This document shows, in pieces, positions 32,527 through 41,691 of a DNA stretch of 41,967 nt. Location of the stretch: the IMG/VR virus record IMGVR_UViG_3300028840_006412, positions 1 to 41,967 of that record. The stretch is one strand, 5' to 3'. The notes beneath the pieces are model-generated. The model was given only the letters and a program-made list of their open reading frames with translations. It had not been told where the DNA came from and did not search any database. This DNA comes from a virus. A program made the translations under genes and the position numbers. Within the stretch, counting starts at the first letter, position 1; each line of letters starts with the position of its first letter.

Positions 32527-32828
32527 TAGAATAACTCCCTGCGAACCTGCGTCACATCGGTAACGATAATTGATTGTCCCGGAATGAGCGCACTGGGCAA
32601 CAATCTGAGATCATTGCGGTGAGCCAAGACCCACCACCAATCATCCCTTTTGTAACGAGCATTAGCGATAGAATCGATTCGCTCAGGATCTGCAACAAGA
32701 TGCTGTTTATCCATACTGGAAGGAGTCAACTCTGGCAGATTCGGCCTGGTCCAAAACTCTACGCCATCAATGACGACTAATGTGGAATGTACCAACCTCG
32801 AACTCCCCCTTCTAATTCTAACCGTCAT
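32526..32828 (-). CDS. LysM-like baseplate/tail protein, P2 gpX/T4 gp53-like
   Basis: 100 aa. The core matches the small LysM tail proteins: IDSIANARYKRDDWWWVLAH followed by NDLRLLPSALIPGQSIIVTD, with the initial YKRDDWWWVLA helix and the LIPGQ turn characteristic of them. In P2 gpX-type proteins this fold binds the tail tube/hub rather than peptidoglycan. It lies between tape measure and hub, the normal place. The stop of the tape measure overlaps its start by four bases. Confidence 0.75.
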   Translation of the reverse strand: MTVRIRRGSSRLVHSTLVVIDGVEFWTRPNLPELTPSSMDKQHLVADPERIDSIANARYKRDDWWWVLAHRNDLRLLPSALIPGQSIIVTDVTQVRRELF

Positions 32829-35800
32829 TTCACCCCTCCTACCGCTCTGCCACTTCTAGCAGCCCCTGACAATGAAACCTGATCAACACTTTTGGCCAAG
32901 ACTTTTTTATCCACTTTTAGATAATTCTCTATCACAATTGGAGTCTTAATAAACCTTCCCAAATCTTCGGCTATACCTTCTTGTTTACGAATCACTTCCT
33001 CCAATGCTACCGCATCCTTCTTCTCCTGCTTCCTCTTTGCTCTTTCCTCAGCACTAGGTATATTTCTCCCCCCCCCCTTCGGTTTCGCCGCTGTTTCTTC
33101 CACCTCCTCAGTCGCAGTCATCCTAGTTTGCCCCCTCGCATGTTTAGCCCTAGCTCTTATCGCCTTATCAGCCTCGGCATAGGAAGCCGAACTATACTCG
33201 ACGACATCTCCTGTAAACTTGCTCCATGCCCCCCCTAAATTAGCTGCCGATTTATCAGCAATATCTTCAGCTGCTTTTCCAGCCTTACCAAGCCCACCCT
33301 CGACAGTATCAGAAATAAACGTTGCCGTTTCTCTCATACCTTCCCAAAGATCATGTGTCTCTTCATCGGACGCCTTCATTTTTTTTACATAGGCATCCGT
33401 AAAAGTTTTTTCTCCTCCCAAGAATTGACGCTGTTCTTTGCGTAGTTGTTTAACCGTATCAGAAATTTTGGCAAAAGTTTCCTCATCACCAAACTTTTTA
33501 ACAATATCACCAAGCCATGTAGGAGCTTGCTCTGTTCCAAACATGCCCTCAATAACTTCCGCAATCCAGCCTTTCAGTTTGAATCCGAGCCATTCAAATG
33601 GATACATTATCCAGCTCGCTAATTTGCTCATCCCCTTATGAACCATCTCACCAAAATCATAGATCTTACCTACAACATACCCAAGACCGCTATTGACCTT
33701 TTCACCAATCCACACCCAAAGCTGCGTCAATTTTGATCCTACCCATTTGAAAGAATCCCAAGCAGCATCTTTCAAGAACCCAAAAAACCCAACAATCGTA
33801 CTAATTTGCGCCTCAACAGTAGCAACAGTGTGTTGATAAAAATCACTCAGATCGTCGCTTGAAATACCCAACATCCTCCCTATTAAAGAGGGGAGGCCCA
33901 TAAACATAGAATCAATAGTAGACGTCACCCCCTTAAATGCTTCCTCGCTCTTAAGCGCCATCTTTTCTTGATCAGAAAGTATTTTTGAAGTGGATATTTC
34001 AGAAATAGTCTGCGCCCTAATAGAGACTTGATTAGCAGCTTCCATAGCTCCCATCAAAGCACCGATAGGAGCCATCATTTTACCAACCGCCTTCGCCCCT
34101 CCCAATGCTTTACCAAGCCCTGCCTTTCCCGCACCCAACATACCCTTTCCCGCTGCTCCTACGCCTAGACCAGACAGGGGGACACCCCCAAAAAAGGCTC
34201 CGGCCCCTCCCATCGGTGGCGTCATTACTCTACTAATACCGCTCCCAGCAATACCCATCATTTTGGCACGAAAAGATTTGGACAAAACAAGAAGCGTAGC
34301 AAACGTCCCCGTTACTAATTTAACAACATTCTTCAGCGTTCCACTGATAGATTCGGGATCAAAAACAGATTCCCACAGACCAGTTATGGCTCCCTTCACT
34401 GTCTTTTTAACAATATCTATTGCTCCCCTAAAGGCATCTTCTAACAAACGCTGTATTGATCCGACCGCACCTTGTTCTGCTTCCTCGCCAAATATCGATC
34501 CCCAGATCGCACCCCCAAGTGCAGATATACCTCTACCAATATATGTAAAAGCAGTTTTGACAATACCGGCCCAATCGACGTCTGCCAAAAACTTTCCTAT
34601 ACTACGAAGGACTTGTTCGCTCGTTCCCCACACGGTCCCCCATAATTCGCCCCATTTTATCTCTTTGAACTTATCCTTAATTACCTGTATCAACCCTTTG
34701 GTCTGAATATCTTCATAGGTACTTTTTAACCATGCATGCGTATCGGGAAAATTCTTTTTGAATTTTTTATTGTCGATAAATCGCTTCTCAAAAACTTCCT
34801 TAATTTTTTCTTTCATATTCGAGAACTGTTCAATAACTTTGTCTGGACCATCAGTCAGCAACTTGAAAACTAACCATAATCCACCACCGGCAATTGCAAA
34901 CTTACCCAGATCACTAAACCTCATTCCCATCGCCCCCAAAGCTGTCAGAACGGGCAATGCACTCGTTGCGATACCTCCTAATAGTGGAGCCAAAGAACTG
35001 AGGCCCGGAATAAGTGCAGAAAGACCTACGCGCTGCACAGCAAGCAGTCTTCTCGTTAATTCGCCAAGCGGACCTTTGTCTTTGGCAAAATCACTAATTA
35101 CTCCAAACGTAGTCTTAAAACCCCGCTTCATGTTCTTTTGCCAAGCCCGAATTTCTTTATTACTCAACCTAAAAAGCTGAGCCTTCATAGTCTGCATCAT
35201 CCGATCCCAAGCTTCCCCCGCCGTAATAGTCGATTTCCAGTGAGCATCAGCCACTTCCTTTAGGGTGCCCTTAGCTCCAGCAATTACACCGGGCATATTG
35301 GCCATCGTCTCACTCACCTTGTCCCAATTCCCCTTCACGGCCCAGGCTACATCAGCACCTAATGCACTATCCATCACATGAGCCATGCGCTCAAATGCAA
35401 TTCCCGTCTCTCCCCCCCTTGCCTTAGCCTCTCTTCCCATCTCCCTCAACATATCCATAAACTTAAGAGGATCGCCCTTGGTTATCATTTCAAAAACCTT
35501 ATTGACGTCTCCTCCCGTCTCCATCAGATTTTTGGCCACTTCTCCAAATTCTCCACCCATCCCAACGAACATCTGATGAATATTTTTTCGCTCTCCAATC
35601 AAGGTAGTAAACAGTGTACGCGCAATCTCTAAGCTCTGTTGCGCTCCTACACCAAGAGACTCCTGTAACCCACCACCTAGTTGAACAATAGACAGGGTTA
35701 GATTCTCTACCTCTTCTGGACTAAGCTGCTTTCCAAACGCAGCCATCTCATTGTTTATGGATTCAAAGATGGCGGGCCATGCCTGAAGGGCCTCTCGTCC

Positions 35801-36439
35801 AATATTGAATTCACGACCTACCGCAACTATCTTATCGGCCAGACTACCCACTGCCTCCTCGGTAAAACCAAACCCCTTTGTTAACCCGCCAGCTATGATA
35901 GCAAGCTGCTCCCCCTCCATATCAAATACAGACGTCACCTTGATTAGATCCTTAACTGCCCCACTTAATCCATCTGCTCCCAACACCTTGATAAGATCGA
36001 CATTTTGTTGCCGAAAGGCTGCCCAACTCTTTGCAGTCCCCTCCATATCTTCGGCCATACCAAATGCTGCACCCCCAATGATCTTGCGTGCCTCCTTCAT
36101 CTCTTTCTCAGAAATCTTCATCCCCGCAACCATCGCTGAAAACGACTTGTTGAAACCAGTAAACATCGATGAATATGCGGTGTCCAACTCGGGACTCATC
36201 GCCTTATCGATCATCCCCCCAATCGCCGTAGTGACGAGCCCAACCGTCTTCGCTCCCTGCTGCCCCATCCGTCCCAATCCCCGTCCAAGCTTACGTCCCA
36301 GAGTAGGAGCTAACCCACTAGCTTTCTTCAAACCACCCCACAGGTTATTAACCGTATCAGATAGGCCCTGTAATTTCTTTTCCGACCCGTCGTCTTCGGC
36401 CTCAATACCAATTCCGAGCCCTTCAAAATTACGTGCCAT
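32825..36439 (-). CDS. Tape measure protein
   Basis: 1204 aa. N-terminal region rich in helix (SEKKLQGLSDTVNNLWGGLK) with a phage-TMP-like segment around residues 75-330 (SSMFTGFNKSFSAMVAGMKI, GMAEDMEGTAKSWAAFRQQN). Central hydrophobic stretches (FAIAGGGLWLVFKLL; VTGTFATLLVLS; WAGIVKTAFTYIGRGISALGGAIW) are the likely membrane segments used during DNA ejection. The C-terminus is charged (RKQEKKDAVALEEVIRKQEG). Length sets the tail length: 1204 residues at about 1.5 A per residue give roughly 180 nm, an estimate from general knowledge. GGAG lies before the ATG at 36439. Confidence 0.8.
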   Translation of the reverse strand: MARNFEGLGIGIEAEDDGSEKKLQGLSDTVNNLWGGLKKASGLAPTLGRKLGRGLGRMGQQGAKTVGLVTTAIGGMIDKAMSPELDTAYSSMFTGFNKSFSAMVAGMKISEKEMKEARKIIGGAAFGMAEDMEGTAKSWAAFRQQNVDLIKVLGADGLSGAVKDLIKVTSVFDMEGEQLAIIAGGLTKGFGFTEEAVGSLADKIVAVGREFNIGREALQAWPAIFESINNEMAAFGKQLSPEEVENLTLSIVQLGGGLQESLGVGAQQSLEIARTLFTTLIGERKNIHQMFVGMGGEFGEVAKNLMETGGDVNKVFEMITKGDPLKFMDMLREMGREAKARGGETGIAFERMAHVMDSALGADVAWAVKGNWDKVSETMANMPGVIAGAKGTLKEVADAHWKSTITAGEAWDRMMQTMKAQLFRLSNKEIRAWQKNMKRGFKTTFGVISDFAKDKGPLGELTRRLLAVQRVGLSALIPGLSSLAPLLGGIATSALPVLTALGAMGMRFSDLGKFAIAGGGLWLVFKLLTDGPDKVIEQFSNMKEKIKEVFEKRFIDNKKFKKNFPDTHAWLKSTYEDIQTKGLIQVIKDKFKEIKWGELWGTVWGTSEQVLRSIGKFLADVDWAGIVKTAFTYIGRGISALGGAIWGSIFGEEAEQGAVGSIQRLLEDAFRGAIDIVKKTVKGAITGLWESVFDPESISGTLKNVVKLVTGTFATLLVLSKSFRAKMMGIAGSGISRVMTPPMGGAGAFFGGVPLSGLGVGAAGKGMLGAGKAGLGKALGGAKAVGKMMAPIGALMGAMEAANQVSIRAQTISEISTSKILSDQEKMALKSEEAFKGVTSTIDSMFMGLPSLIGRMLGISSDDLSDFYQHTVATVEAQISTIVGFFGFLKDAAWDSFKWVGSKLTQLWVWIGEKVNSGLGYVVGKIYDFGEMVHKGMSKLASWIMYPFEWLGFKLKGWIAEVIEGMFGTEQAPTWLGDIVKKFGDEETFAKISDTVKQLRKEQRQFLGGEKTFTDAYVKKMKASDEETHDLWEGMRETATFISDTVEGGLGKAGKAAEDIADKSAANLGGAWSKFTGDVVEYSSASYAEADKAIRARAKHARGQTRMTATEEVEETAAKPKGGGRNIPSAEERAKRKQEKKDAVALEEVIRKQEGIAEDLGRFIKTPIVIENYLKVDKKVLAKSVDQVSLSGAARSGRAVGGVK

Positions 36440-36880: not shown

Positions 36881-36994
36881 CTATGATTTATTCAATCTCG
36901 CTATGTATTCGAGATGTTCCTGGATCGCTCTGTGTCTACGCGAAGACGGCATTGACATCGCACTTTCATAAGGAAGATGTAATTCGCTCATCAT
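36881..36994 (-). CDS. Frameshift extension of the tail assembly chaperone (-1 frame)
   Basis: 37 codons from ATG 36994 (or 36991) to TAG 36881, in the -1 frame relative to the chaperone. The reading frame is open back through the slippery site at 37039-37045, so slippage would make one 313-aa fusion (261 residues from the chaperone plus 52). The segment ends in LHLPYESAMSMPSSRRHRAI QEHLEYIARLNK, a helical, LPY/MP-containing form like the C-terminal extensions of other myovirus chaperones. A weak independent start (AAGGAAG eight bases upstream of the ATG) is possible too. Confidence 0.6.
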   Translation of the reverse strand: MMSELHLPYESAMSMPSSRRHRAIQEHLEYIARLNKS

Positions 36995-37011
36995 ATAAAA
37001 CACTTCCTTCT

Positions 37012-37821
37012 CTAGTCTTCTGACGTCTCCGAAGGGGCGAAAAAATTGACACCTCCAATTGCGAGAAGCACCCTAAATTCATGTTCACATTCTCTACATA
37101 TAACATCAAACTCTGTCTCTATCCCGCCCTCCTGGTCAAATAGCTTCCTGATCTCGACACGTTCCTTATATGAAAGTGCTTGCAAATTCTCTATCGTAGC
37201 GGGCTCATCGTTTACCGTCTGGACACGAATCAGAAGCGCAGCCGTCGCTTTATTTTTCGACGTTTTCTTCTTCTCATGCGTCAACTCCATATCGCCAGTC
37301 ATCATGGCCCACGTGATACGTGTCCCCCTGCTTGTCGTATACTCCCTCACCGCCTTAGTCAGATCACCCTCGGCTGGAAGAGCTTTAAAATCAGACAGGC
37401 TTAGCCGTACCGTCCATGAGAAAGGCTGTCCATCATCGGTTGTACAATTTGGACATTTCACTATTTGTCTCAACTCGTCACCAACAGTTACCTCTCTGAT
37501 ACGAAGAGCACAAACCAACAGATCCGACATGAGCATCTGAGGAGCAGCTTTGATTAATGCTGATCGATCAACAATCGAATGCCCCTCATCATCGGAAAGA
37601 GACGTCAAACAACTCCCCACGAGCCGATGCATTCGCTTAGTAAAAGATACCTTGTCATCGGCTATAATGTCCTCTTCCAAACCGCTCATCTCTCGCAAAA
37701 TAGCAGTACCTAGTACATGCACCCCATCGCTATCCTGTAACAGATAGCCACGAGGCAGTTTTGCCTCAATACTGGGAACCTTCGCATCATCAATTGTCTT
37801 AGTATCCAGAACCGACATCAT
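37012..37821 (-). CDS. Tail assembly chaperone-type protein (0-frame product)
   Basis: 269 aa. N-terminal region PRGYLLQDSDGVHVLGTAIL REMSGLEEDIIADDK and the pattern SDLLVCALRIREVTVGDELR match the T4 gp26/chaperone-type proteins placed before the tape measure. A zinc site is suggested by KCPNC (about 121-125) and CRECEHEF near the C-terminus. The start at 37821 has AAAGGAGG upstream; ATGA overlaps the ribbon-helix-helix gene. Proteins of this position assist tape measure and tube assembly and are not in the finished tail. A T-TTT-TTC heptamer near the end suggests -1 frameshifting into the next frame. Confidence 0.7.
   Translation of the reverse strand: MMSVLDTKTIDDAKVPSIEAKLPRGYLLQDSDGVHVLGTAILREMSGLEEDIIADDKVSFTKRMHRLVGSCLTSLSDDEGHSIVDRSALIKAAPQMLMSDLLVCALRIREVTVGDELRQIVKCPNCTTDDGQPFSWTVRLSLSDFKALPAEGDLTKAVREYTTSRGTRITWAMMTGDMELTHEKKKTSKNKATAALLIRVQTVNDEPATIENLQALSYKERVEIRKLFDQEGGIETEFDVICRECEHEFRVLLAIGGVNFFAPSETSED
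37039..37045 (-). promoter_or_regulatory. -1 programmed frameshift site TTTTTTC
   Basis: On the minus strand the codons AAT TTT TTC contain the heptamer T TTT TTC, the X-XXY-YYZ form of slippery sites. It lies 27 bases before the 0-frame stop. The -1 frame is open for 52 codons and includes the 37-codon ORF. GGAGGT five bases upstream may act as a stimulator; a short CTTC/GAAG stem lies just downstream. Frameshifting at this place is standard in tail chaperone genes before the tape measure. Confidence 0.6.
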
Positions 37822-38300: not shown

Positions 38301-39008
38301 CTATGCCCCCACTCCAAATTGCTCAAAATGAGAATATGCCAAATCTAACTCCTCAATACTTACGGCTGTTGTATCTGCATCAAAATCACTACCTGGTTTA
38401 TACCGGGTCGGCAAGCATCCAAACAGCATATAGGCTTTACCTGGTATAGAAGTAATCCCCAGATCTAAAAGCCCCTGTGTCAGTGACGACTGCAACCCTG
38501 AAGCTTCGGACAAGCCAGCATAGGGGAGGAGCGCTAATCCCCTCGCCATATCCAGCCCCCTCGCTGAATCCATAGCCTCTAAAAGACCCTCTGCAGAAAG
38601 CCCAGTCAGATGTAACAAGATCATATTCCTGCGCTTGCCAGGAATTTTGATATCGCCAAACAAACCAAGCGTTGACGCCTGAGTTAAAAATCCGGCCACG
38701 CTTTCTTTGCCTGAAGCGCTAGTCCCCTTGACACACGCCATGGTCCATCGCCAAAAATCACTATTAAAAGGAGTCGATCCTCTCGAAAGAGTAATAGTAT
38801 TGGTAGAAGCTTTTTTTAACACGTGATGAACAAAATCACTAGTTCCCTCCTGGATCTCCTCTGTCTCGATAGAAATCTCAGGTATGGTGATTGAAGAAAA
38901 ACCTACATTGGGAACTAATACAAAGGGAGGGAAAGAAAAAGATGGATCTACATCTATAAGATGGAATTGGTGAACTCGAAGTTCATCGCTAAAAATACTG
39001 CGAGACAT
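38301..39008 (-). CDS. Tail tube protein, T4 gp19-like (paralogue 1)
   Basis: 235 aa. Family pattern: an N-terminal strand, FSSITIPEISIETEEIQEGT, then HHVLKKASTNTITLSRGSTP and the NSDFWRWTMAC segment. gp19-type proteins stack in rings to form the inner tube. Here the extended loop around residues 120-185 (AEGLLEAMDSARGLDMARGL) is longer than usual. Two tube-like genes lie side by side, suggesting a mixed tube or one end-cap variant. Confidence 0.75.
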   Translation of the reverse strand: MSRSIFSDELRVHQFHLIDVDPSFSFPPFVLVPNVGFSSITIPEISIETEEIQEGTSDFVHHVLKKASTNTITLSRGSTPFNSDFWRWTMACVKGTSASGKESVAGFLTQASTLGLFGDIKIPGKRRNMILLHLTGLSAEGLLEAMDSARGLDMARGLALLPYAGLSEASGLQSSLTQGLLDLGITSIPGKAYMLFGCLPTRYKPGSDFDADTTAVSIEELDLAYSHFEQFGVGA

Positions 39009-39518
39009 TTAGGCAGAAGGCTTGGTTGTCAACTCTACTTCTTCAACCTCAACCGTAATTTCCTGCATGTTGACGTCTGTAGCCGACGCATCGAGGTCTC
39101 CCATCGGCTTGACACTCGATGGAATACACTGTCTCCAAATCTCAGATCGAACAGCCTCGTCGTTCGCCACATCTGATCCGTCCTCCTCCTGATCATAGAC
39201 TCGAATCTCCAGATCGGTACGAAACGGCTTGCGACCCAAATATTTGTCAATCGCCCAGTCGTAAAACGTCGTATCACCTCTCAAGATGCCTCGCGTCATC
39301 GTTCCAGCTTCCCACGTGGGGGGTCCAAGAAACTTCCGCGCATATTTGCGAGATCCCGTTCGATGCTCCGCTGTTTCAAAGGTGAGGTTTGGAGTAGTGA
39401 CCGTATTAAATCCAGCAACTGGATTTTCATTGTCAAACACCCCTGCTCCACCGTCTATCTCAAAGACTCGAAAGCGAAAACTCTGAATCTCGTCTTGTGC
39501 TACTGACCTTACCGTCAT
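39009..39518 (-). CDS. Tail tube protein, T4 gp19-like (paralogue 2)
   Basis: 169 aa, the normal size of gp19-like tube subunits. Pattern: FRFRVFEIDGG, VAGFNTVTTPNLTFETAEHR, TGSRKYARKFLGPPTWEAGT, and ILRGDTTFYDWAIDKYLGRK, ending in EITVEVEEVELTTK. AAGGAGG lies before the ATG at 39518. It is directly downstream of the sheath, the usual position for the major tube protein, so this paralogue is the better candidate for the main tube. Confidence 0.75.
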   Translation of the reverse strand: MTVRSVAQDEIQSFRFRVFEIDGGAGVFDNENPVAGFNTVTTPNLTFETAEHRTGSRKYARKFLGPPTWEAGTMTRGILRGDTTFYDWAIDKYLGRKPFRTDLEIRVYDQEEDGSDVANDEAVRSEIWRQCIPSSVKPMGDLDASATDVNMQEITVEVEEVELTTKPSA

Positions 39519-39546: not shown

Positions 39547-41691
39547 CTATGAAGCAACCTTTTGCTGAAATCTCAACCGGATAAATTCCGCTGGTTTATT
39601 CCCAGCAATGTAGTAGTCCACCGTAAGCAACCCAGCATCAATACTGGCCTGCGGGTTGTTCTCCTCATCCACCTTGATAAACCAAGCCTCGGCCTGCGTA
39701 GCTCCCTTCAGATACCCATCCCTGAGCAATCCTTGGAAAAAGCCATCTCCCTGCGCCTTGATTCGAGCCCAAAGGCCCGGCCCATTGTTCTCAAAGACGG
39801 CCCAGAACGAATTGTTATACACGCTCTGCTCACAGAACATGAAGAGACGTCGAATGTTAACATTGATCCATTCCGCATCCTTACTAAGAGTTTTCGCTCC
39901 CCACACGGCTCGACCAGTCTGAACGGTAGACACTAACGGATTGATACGTGCCGGATACAAAATATCCCGCTCGCCCTTGGATAGAATACGCTCTAGCCCA
40001 GTCGCTCCATTGAGTCTACCATCGGTAATGCCCGCAGGAGCCTTGCCAACATTCCTGTTGGTATCTGTCCGTGCAAACACTCCCGCGATAAATCCATCGG
40101 GAGGTACATCGAGGTTGCGACCATCGTCAGCTATCGGATCGTAAATCTTAACCCAGGGATAGTAGAGAGCGCCATAACTCGTGTTGTAAGCAGCCGTATT
40201 CCTCACAAACTTGACCGCATCGGTCGGCTCCAGTCCCGCCTCGGTGGTCAAAATGGCGAAACGGTTCTTGTTCGTCTCAGCATACGCAATGAGATCATTG
40301 CTTACTGTCACATTCCCTGCAAAATCTGGCATTGAAATGTTCAAGATCTCATCGAGATCATCAAAGGAGTAAAGACCAGTCTTGCTCGCTTGCAAAGTGG
40401 GATCTGTGACGTCCCCACGTGTCAACGGCCCAGTTCCGTCTGTTCCTCCCGAGAGTTGACCACAGACTTCGGTCTCATCGGGCTCGGACCAATATGTCAT
40501 CATGATCGGAGTCCCATCGGCTGGCGCAGCCGAAAATTCAAGCGTCCAAGCTCCTGTCGTATAGTTGATGGTGCCGCTGACAATCCCTGTGCCCGTGATA
40601 GCTCCGTCGCTATCGTCCGTACCTGTCACAGTACCAGCCTGAACCGAAACCGTTCCAAACCTCACCTCTGGATTGCGAATAGTGCCGGAAAAGGAAGTCT
40701 CCGCCGCATCACCTTCACCCAAGAACTCAGCTAATCGCTTCGTAGCTCTCAACGATCTTGGAATGTTGTAATCAGATCCCTTCGTGATTTGAGAGAAGTT
40801 GGTCTCACCATTGACGACATCTTCAATGAAATGCTCATCCGTATCGTCATCAAGAACCACCTCGTCATATGTCTCCTCTACCTGCCAATCGGCCTCGCCA
40901 ACTGCCGATTCGCTCTGAATCGAAACATCAAACCTGGTCCAACCTCCATTGTCCCCCTCATAATCATTGTTGCCCGAGAGACACATGCGAACCTGATTGT
41001 AAAAAGTGCCTTTCCAAGGCGAGGTAAGCGTCCAGTCCGATGCATCCTCACCTTCGTACAGGTAAGTCTGATCGTTTGAGACGTCCAAGCCGAGAATCAC
41101 AGCCGTTGCATCATTGGCTGTTGCATCTTCGAACTCAAGACTCGCGGTAGCACCAGTATCATCTGTGACAATTTCAATTCGATTGCCAGTGCCTACTGAA
41201 CAACTAATGCCCGCTATCGCGTCAATAGCCGATGCAATTTCTGTGGGGGTAGTGCTCGCTGGAACCGCACCTGCACAATCGATTTCTGTAGCCGCAGCAC
41301 CGCTGATCTTTACAGCGATATAACTATCGGTACTCAGATCAACAGTGGAAGCTAGGGGACGACCAAAAAAAGATGCCGGAGTAGCAGCATCATCCAGATC
41401 TGATGCATTCGTCGCCGCTATTGCATCACTCGGAACTACACGTGTCACATATGCTCGCGTTCCCTCATTTTGAAAAAACGCAGCCATCATGAACGGAATA
41501 TTACTATTCCTCCAATACGTTCCGAATATCTCTACGAACCTATCAAAAGTGGTCACGAGCTGCGGTTCATTCTCCGGCCCCTTCCTAAGCCACCCTGCCG
41601 TAGCATAGGTAGACGTAGAAACACCAGCGATTGCCCCTGCGCTCGCAGACCTCTCTATCAGAAACAGTCCAGGACTCAGGTATTCACCCAT
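39547..41691 (-). CDS. Tail sheath protein
   Basis: 714 aa. N-terminus GEYLSPGLFLIERSASAGAI is typical of sheath proteins; the C-terminal domain includes WINVNIRRLFMFCEQSVYNN SFWAVFENNGPGLW, and TQAEAWFIKVDEENNP, with the final handshake strand IPGNKPAEFIRLRFQQK-like ending AEFIRLRFQQKVAS. The middle contains extra beta domains (ITGTGIVSGTINYTTGAWTL, and DGAITGTGI) like those in the fibre proteins, which explain the large size. GAGGAGG lies before the ATG at 41691. It forms the contractile outer layer. Confidence 0.9.
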   Translation of the reverse strand: MGEYLSPGLFLIERSASAGAIAGVSTSTYATAGWLRKGPENEPQLVTTFDRFVEIFGTYWRNSNIPFMMAAFFQNEGTRAYVTRVVPSDAIAATNASDLDDAATPASFFGRPLASTVDLSTDSYIAVKISGAAATEIDCAGAVPASTTPTEIASAIDAIAGISCSVGTGNRIEIVTDDTGATASLEFEDATANDATAVILGLDVSNDQTYLYEGEDASDWTLTSPWKGTFYNQVRMCLSGNNDYEGDNGGWTRFDVSIQSESAVGEADWQVEETYDEVVLDDDTDEHFIEDVVNGETNFSQITKGSDYNIPRSLRATKRLAEFLGEGDAAETSFSGTIRNPEVRFGTVSVQAGTVTGTDDSDGAITGTGIVSGTINYTTGAWTLEFSAAPADGTPIMMTYWSEPDETEVCGQLSGGTDGTGPLTRGDVTDPTLQASKTGLYSFDDLDEILNISMPDFAGNVTVSNDLIAYAETNKNRFAILTTEAGLEPTDAVKFVRNTAAYNTSYGALYYPWVKIYDPIADDGRNLDVPPDGFIAGVFARTDTNRNVGKAPAGITDGRLNGATGLERILSKGERDILYPARINPLVSTVQTGRAVWGAKTLSKDAEWINVNIRRLFMFCEQSVYNNSFWAVFENNGPGLWARIKAQGDGFFQGLLRDGYLKGATQAEAWFIKVDEENNPQASIDAGLLTVDYYIAGNKPAEFIRLRFQQKVAS

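Follow-up and report, generated by a model that had tools for sequence, protein, structure and literature searches.

A predicted −1 frameshift in a tail assembly chaperone gene of an uncultivated contractile-tailed phage, and an apparent switching of frameshift direction in its T4 gp26-like family

The sequence analysed here is a 41,967-base IMG/VR record (hereafter the window), the minus strand of which carries, in order, genes for a sheath, a tube, a second tube-like protein, a 65-amino-acid ORF, a ribbon-helix-helix protein, the chaperone, a micro-ORF, a DUF1360 protein, a tape-measure-like protein and baseplate proteins. All coordinates given below for this block are on the minus strand. 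The tail sheath protein (39547..41691) was recognized by a profile match, and the tail is therefore contractile. It is followed by two adjacent tail-tube proteins of the T4 gp19 family (38301..39518), of 169 amino acids (39518-39009) and 235 amino acids (39008-38301). An Arc/CopG-like ribbon-helix-helix protein within the tail operon (38069-37818, with a TTG start as listed) lies directly upstream of the chaperone gene and overlaps its start. On the other side of the chaperone gene, a micro-ORF of ~21 codons with a good ribosome-binding site (MLRKKWMLPVVRNCCAGSCFR; 36867-36802) and a membrane-like DUF1360 (PF07098) protein (36805-36440) precede an ORF of 1204 amino acids (32825..36439), which is tape-measure-like in size and position and matches no family. 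The chaperone gene thus sits between the tail tube and a tape measure assigned by size and position only. The original prediction had placed it just before the tape measure; it is indeed upstream, with the micro-ORF and the DUF1360 gene in between. Peptides of the form W.LP.VRxC, like that of the micro-ORF, occupy the same place in three of the five relatives described below (L005, L006 and L007) and were not seen there in the other two (L008 and L022). N-termini similar to that of the DUF1360 protein are found at the same place in L005-L008.

The 0-frame ORF of the chaperone gene (37012..37821) runs from the ATG at 37821 to the TAG at 37014-37012 and encodes a short product of 269 amino acids (TAC-N), which carries CPNC and CREC cysteine pairs. 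The stop codon lies 30 nt 3′ of a slippery heptamer, T TTT TTC (37039..37045). Frame 0 reads AAT TTT TTC GCC across this site, so that the first T is the third base of the AAT codon and the X XXY YYZ register is correct. The −1 frame is open between about 37072 and its own TAG at 36883-36881, and the extension that it encodes from the heptamer onward (TAC-C; 36881..37045) consists of the Phe-Phe pair and 52 further codons (RPFGDVRRLEKEVFYMMSELHLPYESAMSMPSSRRHRAIQEHLEYIARLNKS). By conceptual translation, a single −1 slip would join 261 residues to 52 new ones in a fusion of 313 amino acids (TAC-NC; 36881..37821), with a predicted junction peptide ...GGVNFFRPFGDVR. The heptamer close to the 0-frame stop, the 52-codon open −1 frame and product sizes of 269 and 313 amino acids had all been predicted earlier from the sequence; the presence of the heptamer and of the open −1 frame in this gene is confirmed, and both sizes are reproduced by conceptual translation.

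Within the window, such an arrangement is not rare. In four of its 45 genes, an in-register XXXYYYZ heptamer precedes the stop and falls within an open −1 overlap. A −1 extension of 42 codons beyond the stop, as seen here, is not unusual among window genes; in many of them the −1 frame stays open for long because it is that of the following gene. The window sequence alone therefore argues weakly against chance, and relatives must decide. A second in-register heptamer, A AAA AAC, was observed at 6364-6358 (minus strand), 27 nt before the stop of the first of two genes (6804-6334 and 6349-6002). Its −1 frame runs open into the second gene, and it is probably a chance occurrence because that gene has its own start. 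A homologue is present in the record of one relative, L006 (as L124).

Four relatives (L005-L008) were found by searching with the sheath, which is 62-71% identical among them to that of the window, and a fifth (L022) by a profile search with the fusion. tblastn of the fusion against named phages returned no relatives, and none was found in bacterial and archaeal genome contigs. The short products of these five independent relatives are 29-56% identical to that of the window. In every one of them, the fusion is matched in two parts, one in frame 0 and one in frame −1, which meet at Phe-Phe. Homologous −1 extensions are thus present in 6/6 genomes, and each begins at this Phe-Phe pair. A check for loss of the open −1 frame, proposed along with the original prediction, found the frame open and its product conserved in 5/5 relatives. 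Homopolymer runs are error-prone, and a sequencing or assembly indel could in principle have broken a single real ORF in two; a further contig (L001) is identical here and 99.98% identical to the window over 10 kb without gaps, and the same two-frame layout in five relatives from other metagenomes already refutes this explanation, to which we give almost no weight.

The Phe-Phe codons are TTT TTC in 6/6 genomes, and the wobble base that precedes them is T in five of the six, although the residue encoded by that codon varies (N, D, S, D and G). T TTT TTC is consequently exact and in register in the window, L005, L007, L008 and L022. The exception, L006, has G TTT TTC, together with an in-register C CCT TTT 9 nt further downstream. 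L006 could plausibly still slip, since GTTTTT is reported as the invariant motif of the −1-frameshifted chaperones of Vandenendeviridae and Andersonviridae (PMC12846349). Judged across these relatives, the arrangement clearly exceeds what would be expected by chance. A run of six T might also be expanded during transcription, with RNA polymerase adding a U, and a one-base insertion would lead to an almost identical −1 product. This is very improbable: L006 has five T only and yet keeps the −1 extension, and T TTT TTC has stayed in its codon register. Six T are also short for bacterial transcriptional slippage.

The extension follows the pattern P(F)G.V..L....(M)P.SRR across the relatives, and its conservation begins at the slip site, with FF[RL]P[FA], then G/C, D/R and V/I, and an invariant L. 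Where the two frames overlap, the −1 peptide (RPFGDV or LPFGDV) is conserved, and the 0-frame tail (APSETSED, FPSDG, YHSATSED or FPQEI) is less so. The −1 frame of L007 and L008 has a stop (TAG, TGA) immediately 5′ of the heptamer and is therefore open only from the slip site onward. These features bear on an alternative in which the extension corresponds to a small protein of its own, of about 38 amino acids ('MMSELHLPYES...'), made without frameshifting by re-initiation at an internal ATG ATG. Such an in-frame ATG-ATG does occur shortly 3′ of the stop with AGAAGGA upstream of it, and the gp51 of cyanophages is annotated as a separate gene. The conserved −1 stretch in the overlap, however, sits upstream of the first in-frame ATG: PFGDV..LE precedes every in-frame ATG and starts exactly at the heptamer. 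Moreover, L008 has no ATG at the position of the internal start, and the heptamer has been retained together with its wobble base in spite of the varying 0-frame residues around it. A separately initiated protein is thus improbable, because it would leave the conservation upstream of its first ATG unexplained.

Differences over all pairs of genomes are distributed as 334/214/430 over the codon positions of the −1 frame, and the extensions of the window and L006 compare at pN 0.21 and pS 0.81 (Nei-Gojobori; synonymous sites were mostly saturated, and for this reason pN and pS are quoted rather than dN/dS). By these measures, the extension is under purifying selection. That the slippery site is accidental and the extension non-functional read-through would agree with the frequency of such heptamers in the window and with our finding no stimulator. 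Against this reading stand the selection acting on the extension and the occurrence of the extension in 6/6 genomes, which make the reading highly improbable. As for stimulators, a downstream stem-loop or pseudoknot was considered as a conserved element and ruled out: the downstream fold in the window is not better than that of shuffled sequences (z +0.5), and no RNA structure is common to all relatives, with good hairpins in L005 and L008 only. Rfam gave no matches in the window. A Shine-Dalgarno-like GGAGGT (37051..37056) lies 5 nt 5′ of the heptamer and is a possible stimulator in the window phage; it is absent from that place in the relatives. Low-level slippage without a strong element, as in lambda, would be a fair expectation.

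By profile and by predicted fold, the short product is a member of the T4 gp26-like family. Five members were tested: phrog_150 (baseplate hub) matches all five (best E 2e-9) and PF12322 (T4 gp26) four (best E 5e-6). The window member on its own reaches E 2e-4 and 21.4 bits against PF12322, just below the curated cut-off of 24.5 bits; L006 with its frame neighbours lies above that cut-off. The phrog_150 match extends into the extension, up to residue 291. An AlphaFold model, which covers the 0-frame product (pLDDT 86.5), has as its best matches in BFVD a T4-like 'baseplate hub assembly protein' (E 5e-20, TM 0.79), and it also matches an SP-15 hub subunit (E 5e-13). Searches of the PDB by sequence and by fold returned nothing useful. 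Family, fold and gene position all support the tail chaperone proposed earlier. The same prediction had pointed to the frameshifts of the lambda G/GT and P2 E/E′ type that occur in this place, and the gene is expected to work like those genes; its sequence family is that of T4 gp26 (TAC-N) and gp51 (TAC-C), and no family match to lambda G or P2 E was found.

Taken together, we consider it highly probable (roughly 92%) that gene 37821-37012 encodes the TAC-N chaperone of a contractile-tailed phage and that −1 slippage on it gives TAC-NC. From the conserved elements, the selection on the extension and the family and fold, we infer the slippage itself, its frequency, the ratio of the two products and their function as chaperones as follows. 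Most ribosomes would stop at 37014-37012 and release the 269-amino-acid TAC-N. In a minority, the Phe-tRNAs on UUU (P site) and UUC (A site) would slip back by one base on U_UUU_UUC and re-read UUU UUU; these ribosomes would miss the stop and add 52 residues, yielding the 313-amino-acid TAC-NC. By analogy with lambda G/GT, many copies of TAC-N and a few of TAC-NC would coat the tape-measure protein, tail-tube subunits would be recruited by the extension and polymerise into a tube of the correct length, and both chaperone forms would leave afterwards.

The direction of the shift appears to differ within the wider gp26-like family, the extension of its more distant members lying in the opposite frame. 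Using a profile of the L014/L016/L012 group, we fetched 80 marine IMG/VR loci (L037-L116; TAC-N match mostly at 1501-2250 of each locus), and in 79 of these 80 the extension lies in the +1 frame at the same Phe-Phe site; these loci are related to each other and do not count as 80 separate events, and the frame assigned to each is that with the longer open extension. A +1-frame extension is also present in L014, L016, L012, L010, L023, L024, L025, L027, L028, L030 and L031. The named phages with a +1-frame extension are Listeria phage LIS04, Microcystis phage Mel-JY01, Flavobacterium phage immuto, Bacillus phage SP-15 (at TTT TTT CAC) and the Streptomyces phages BRock and GiJojo (at CTG TTT CGC). 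In L014, L016, L012 and the marine loci, the site is mostly GAC TTT TTT TGG CCT, with the variants TTT CTT TGG and TTC TTT TGG. CUU_UGG is similar to the CUU_UGA site of RF2, and UUU_CGN to the PA-X site of influenza virus. A −2 shift at these sites is unlikely, because the tRNA could not re-pair well on the CTT variants. One Synechococcus phage, S-SCSM1 (L123, about 1190-1404), reads TCT TTT TTC GCT TAG like the −1 cyanophages and has its extension in the +1 frame, which may be a true switch or the result of an indel in the deposited sequence.

The TAC-N proteins of the −1 and +1 groups are homologous (hhalign E 1e-24), and their extensions may be so, with a weak match: the extension aligns to the TAC-C of +1 relatives with a probability of 53% (E 1e-4, pairwise). 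In a 40-row TAC-N tree, the window clade is nested among +1 rows and at least three changes of direction are needed, all of them forced by supported branches. Going by this tree, the direction of frameshifting has apparently changed three times or more in the history of the family. We therefore regard it as fairly likely, with less assurance than for the −1 shift in the window gene, that the Phe-Phe pair acts as a two-way switch, on which U_UUU_UUC would direct a −1 shift (window clade and cyanophages) and UUU_UGG, CUU_UGG and UUU_CGC/CAC a +1 shift, with the extension kept through at least three flips on the TAC-N tree. A +1 chaperone frameshift is known from HSTV-2 (PMC5009743), and the PRFect training set holds 350 forward cases (PMC10885494); +1 as such is thus not new. 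What may be new is a change of direction at a homologous site inside a single family.

The window gene provides a comparatively supported frameshift for an uncultivated lineage of contractile-tailed phages, and a gene that would likely be annotated as a 'baseplate hub subunit' followed by empty space becomes a chaperone with two products. Comparison across the family suggests that one and the same site is tunable to −1 or +1. Since short natural differences at one homologous site accompany opposite outcomes, the determinants of frameshift direction can be tested directly in this system.

Among known chaperone systems, lambda encodes a short and a −1-extended long chaperone upstream of the tape measure, and in the lambda model the TAC-N-type protein attaches to the tape measure, while tube subunits are recruited through the extension (PMC5009743). 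The gpG/gpGT pair is like the window gene in having a short and a −1-extended chaperone upstream of the tape measure; no sequence relation was found between them, and the lambda tail is long and non-contractile, whereas that of the window phage is contractile. P2, which has a contractile tail, uses a −1 frameshift at the same position for its E/E′ chaperone, and in these three respects it is like the window phage; again no sequence relation was found. For T4-like phages, Vladimirov, Gautam & Davidson reportedly equated gp26 with TAC-N and gp51 with TAC-NC in 2022. T4-like gp26/gp51 belong to the same family as the window gene by profile and fold and occupy the same place upstream of the tape measure; the extension in the window, with its MPSSRR motif, has diverged greatly. 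The 2022 study is cited by the authors of PRFect (PMC10885494) for T4-like chaperones that consist of a short gene and a fused long gene, and for T4 itself having two genes and no frameshift, where we predict a −1 frameshift for the window phage. A second paper (PMC12846349) cites it for −1 signals of the poly-T type in T4-like TAC-N genes. The chaperones of Vandenendeviridae and Andersonviridae are likewise myovirus chaperones with a −1 frameshift at poly-T, and L006 shares their G TTT TT (PMC12846349). The closest parallel is provided by the cyanophages S-CREM2, S-PM2 and Syn33, in which T TTT TTC lies at the end of gp26 and gp51/TAC-C follows in the −1 frame, the same site and −1 extension as in the window. 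Cyanophage gp51 has only ~20% of the length of T4 gp51 (PMC3037559), which fits a TAC-C read by frameshift. The window gene is another case of this known T4-like/cyanophage frameshift arrangement.
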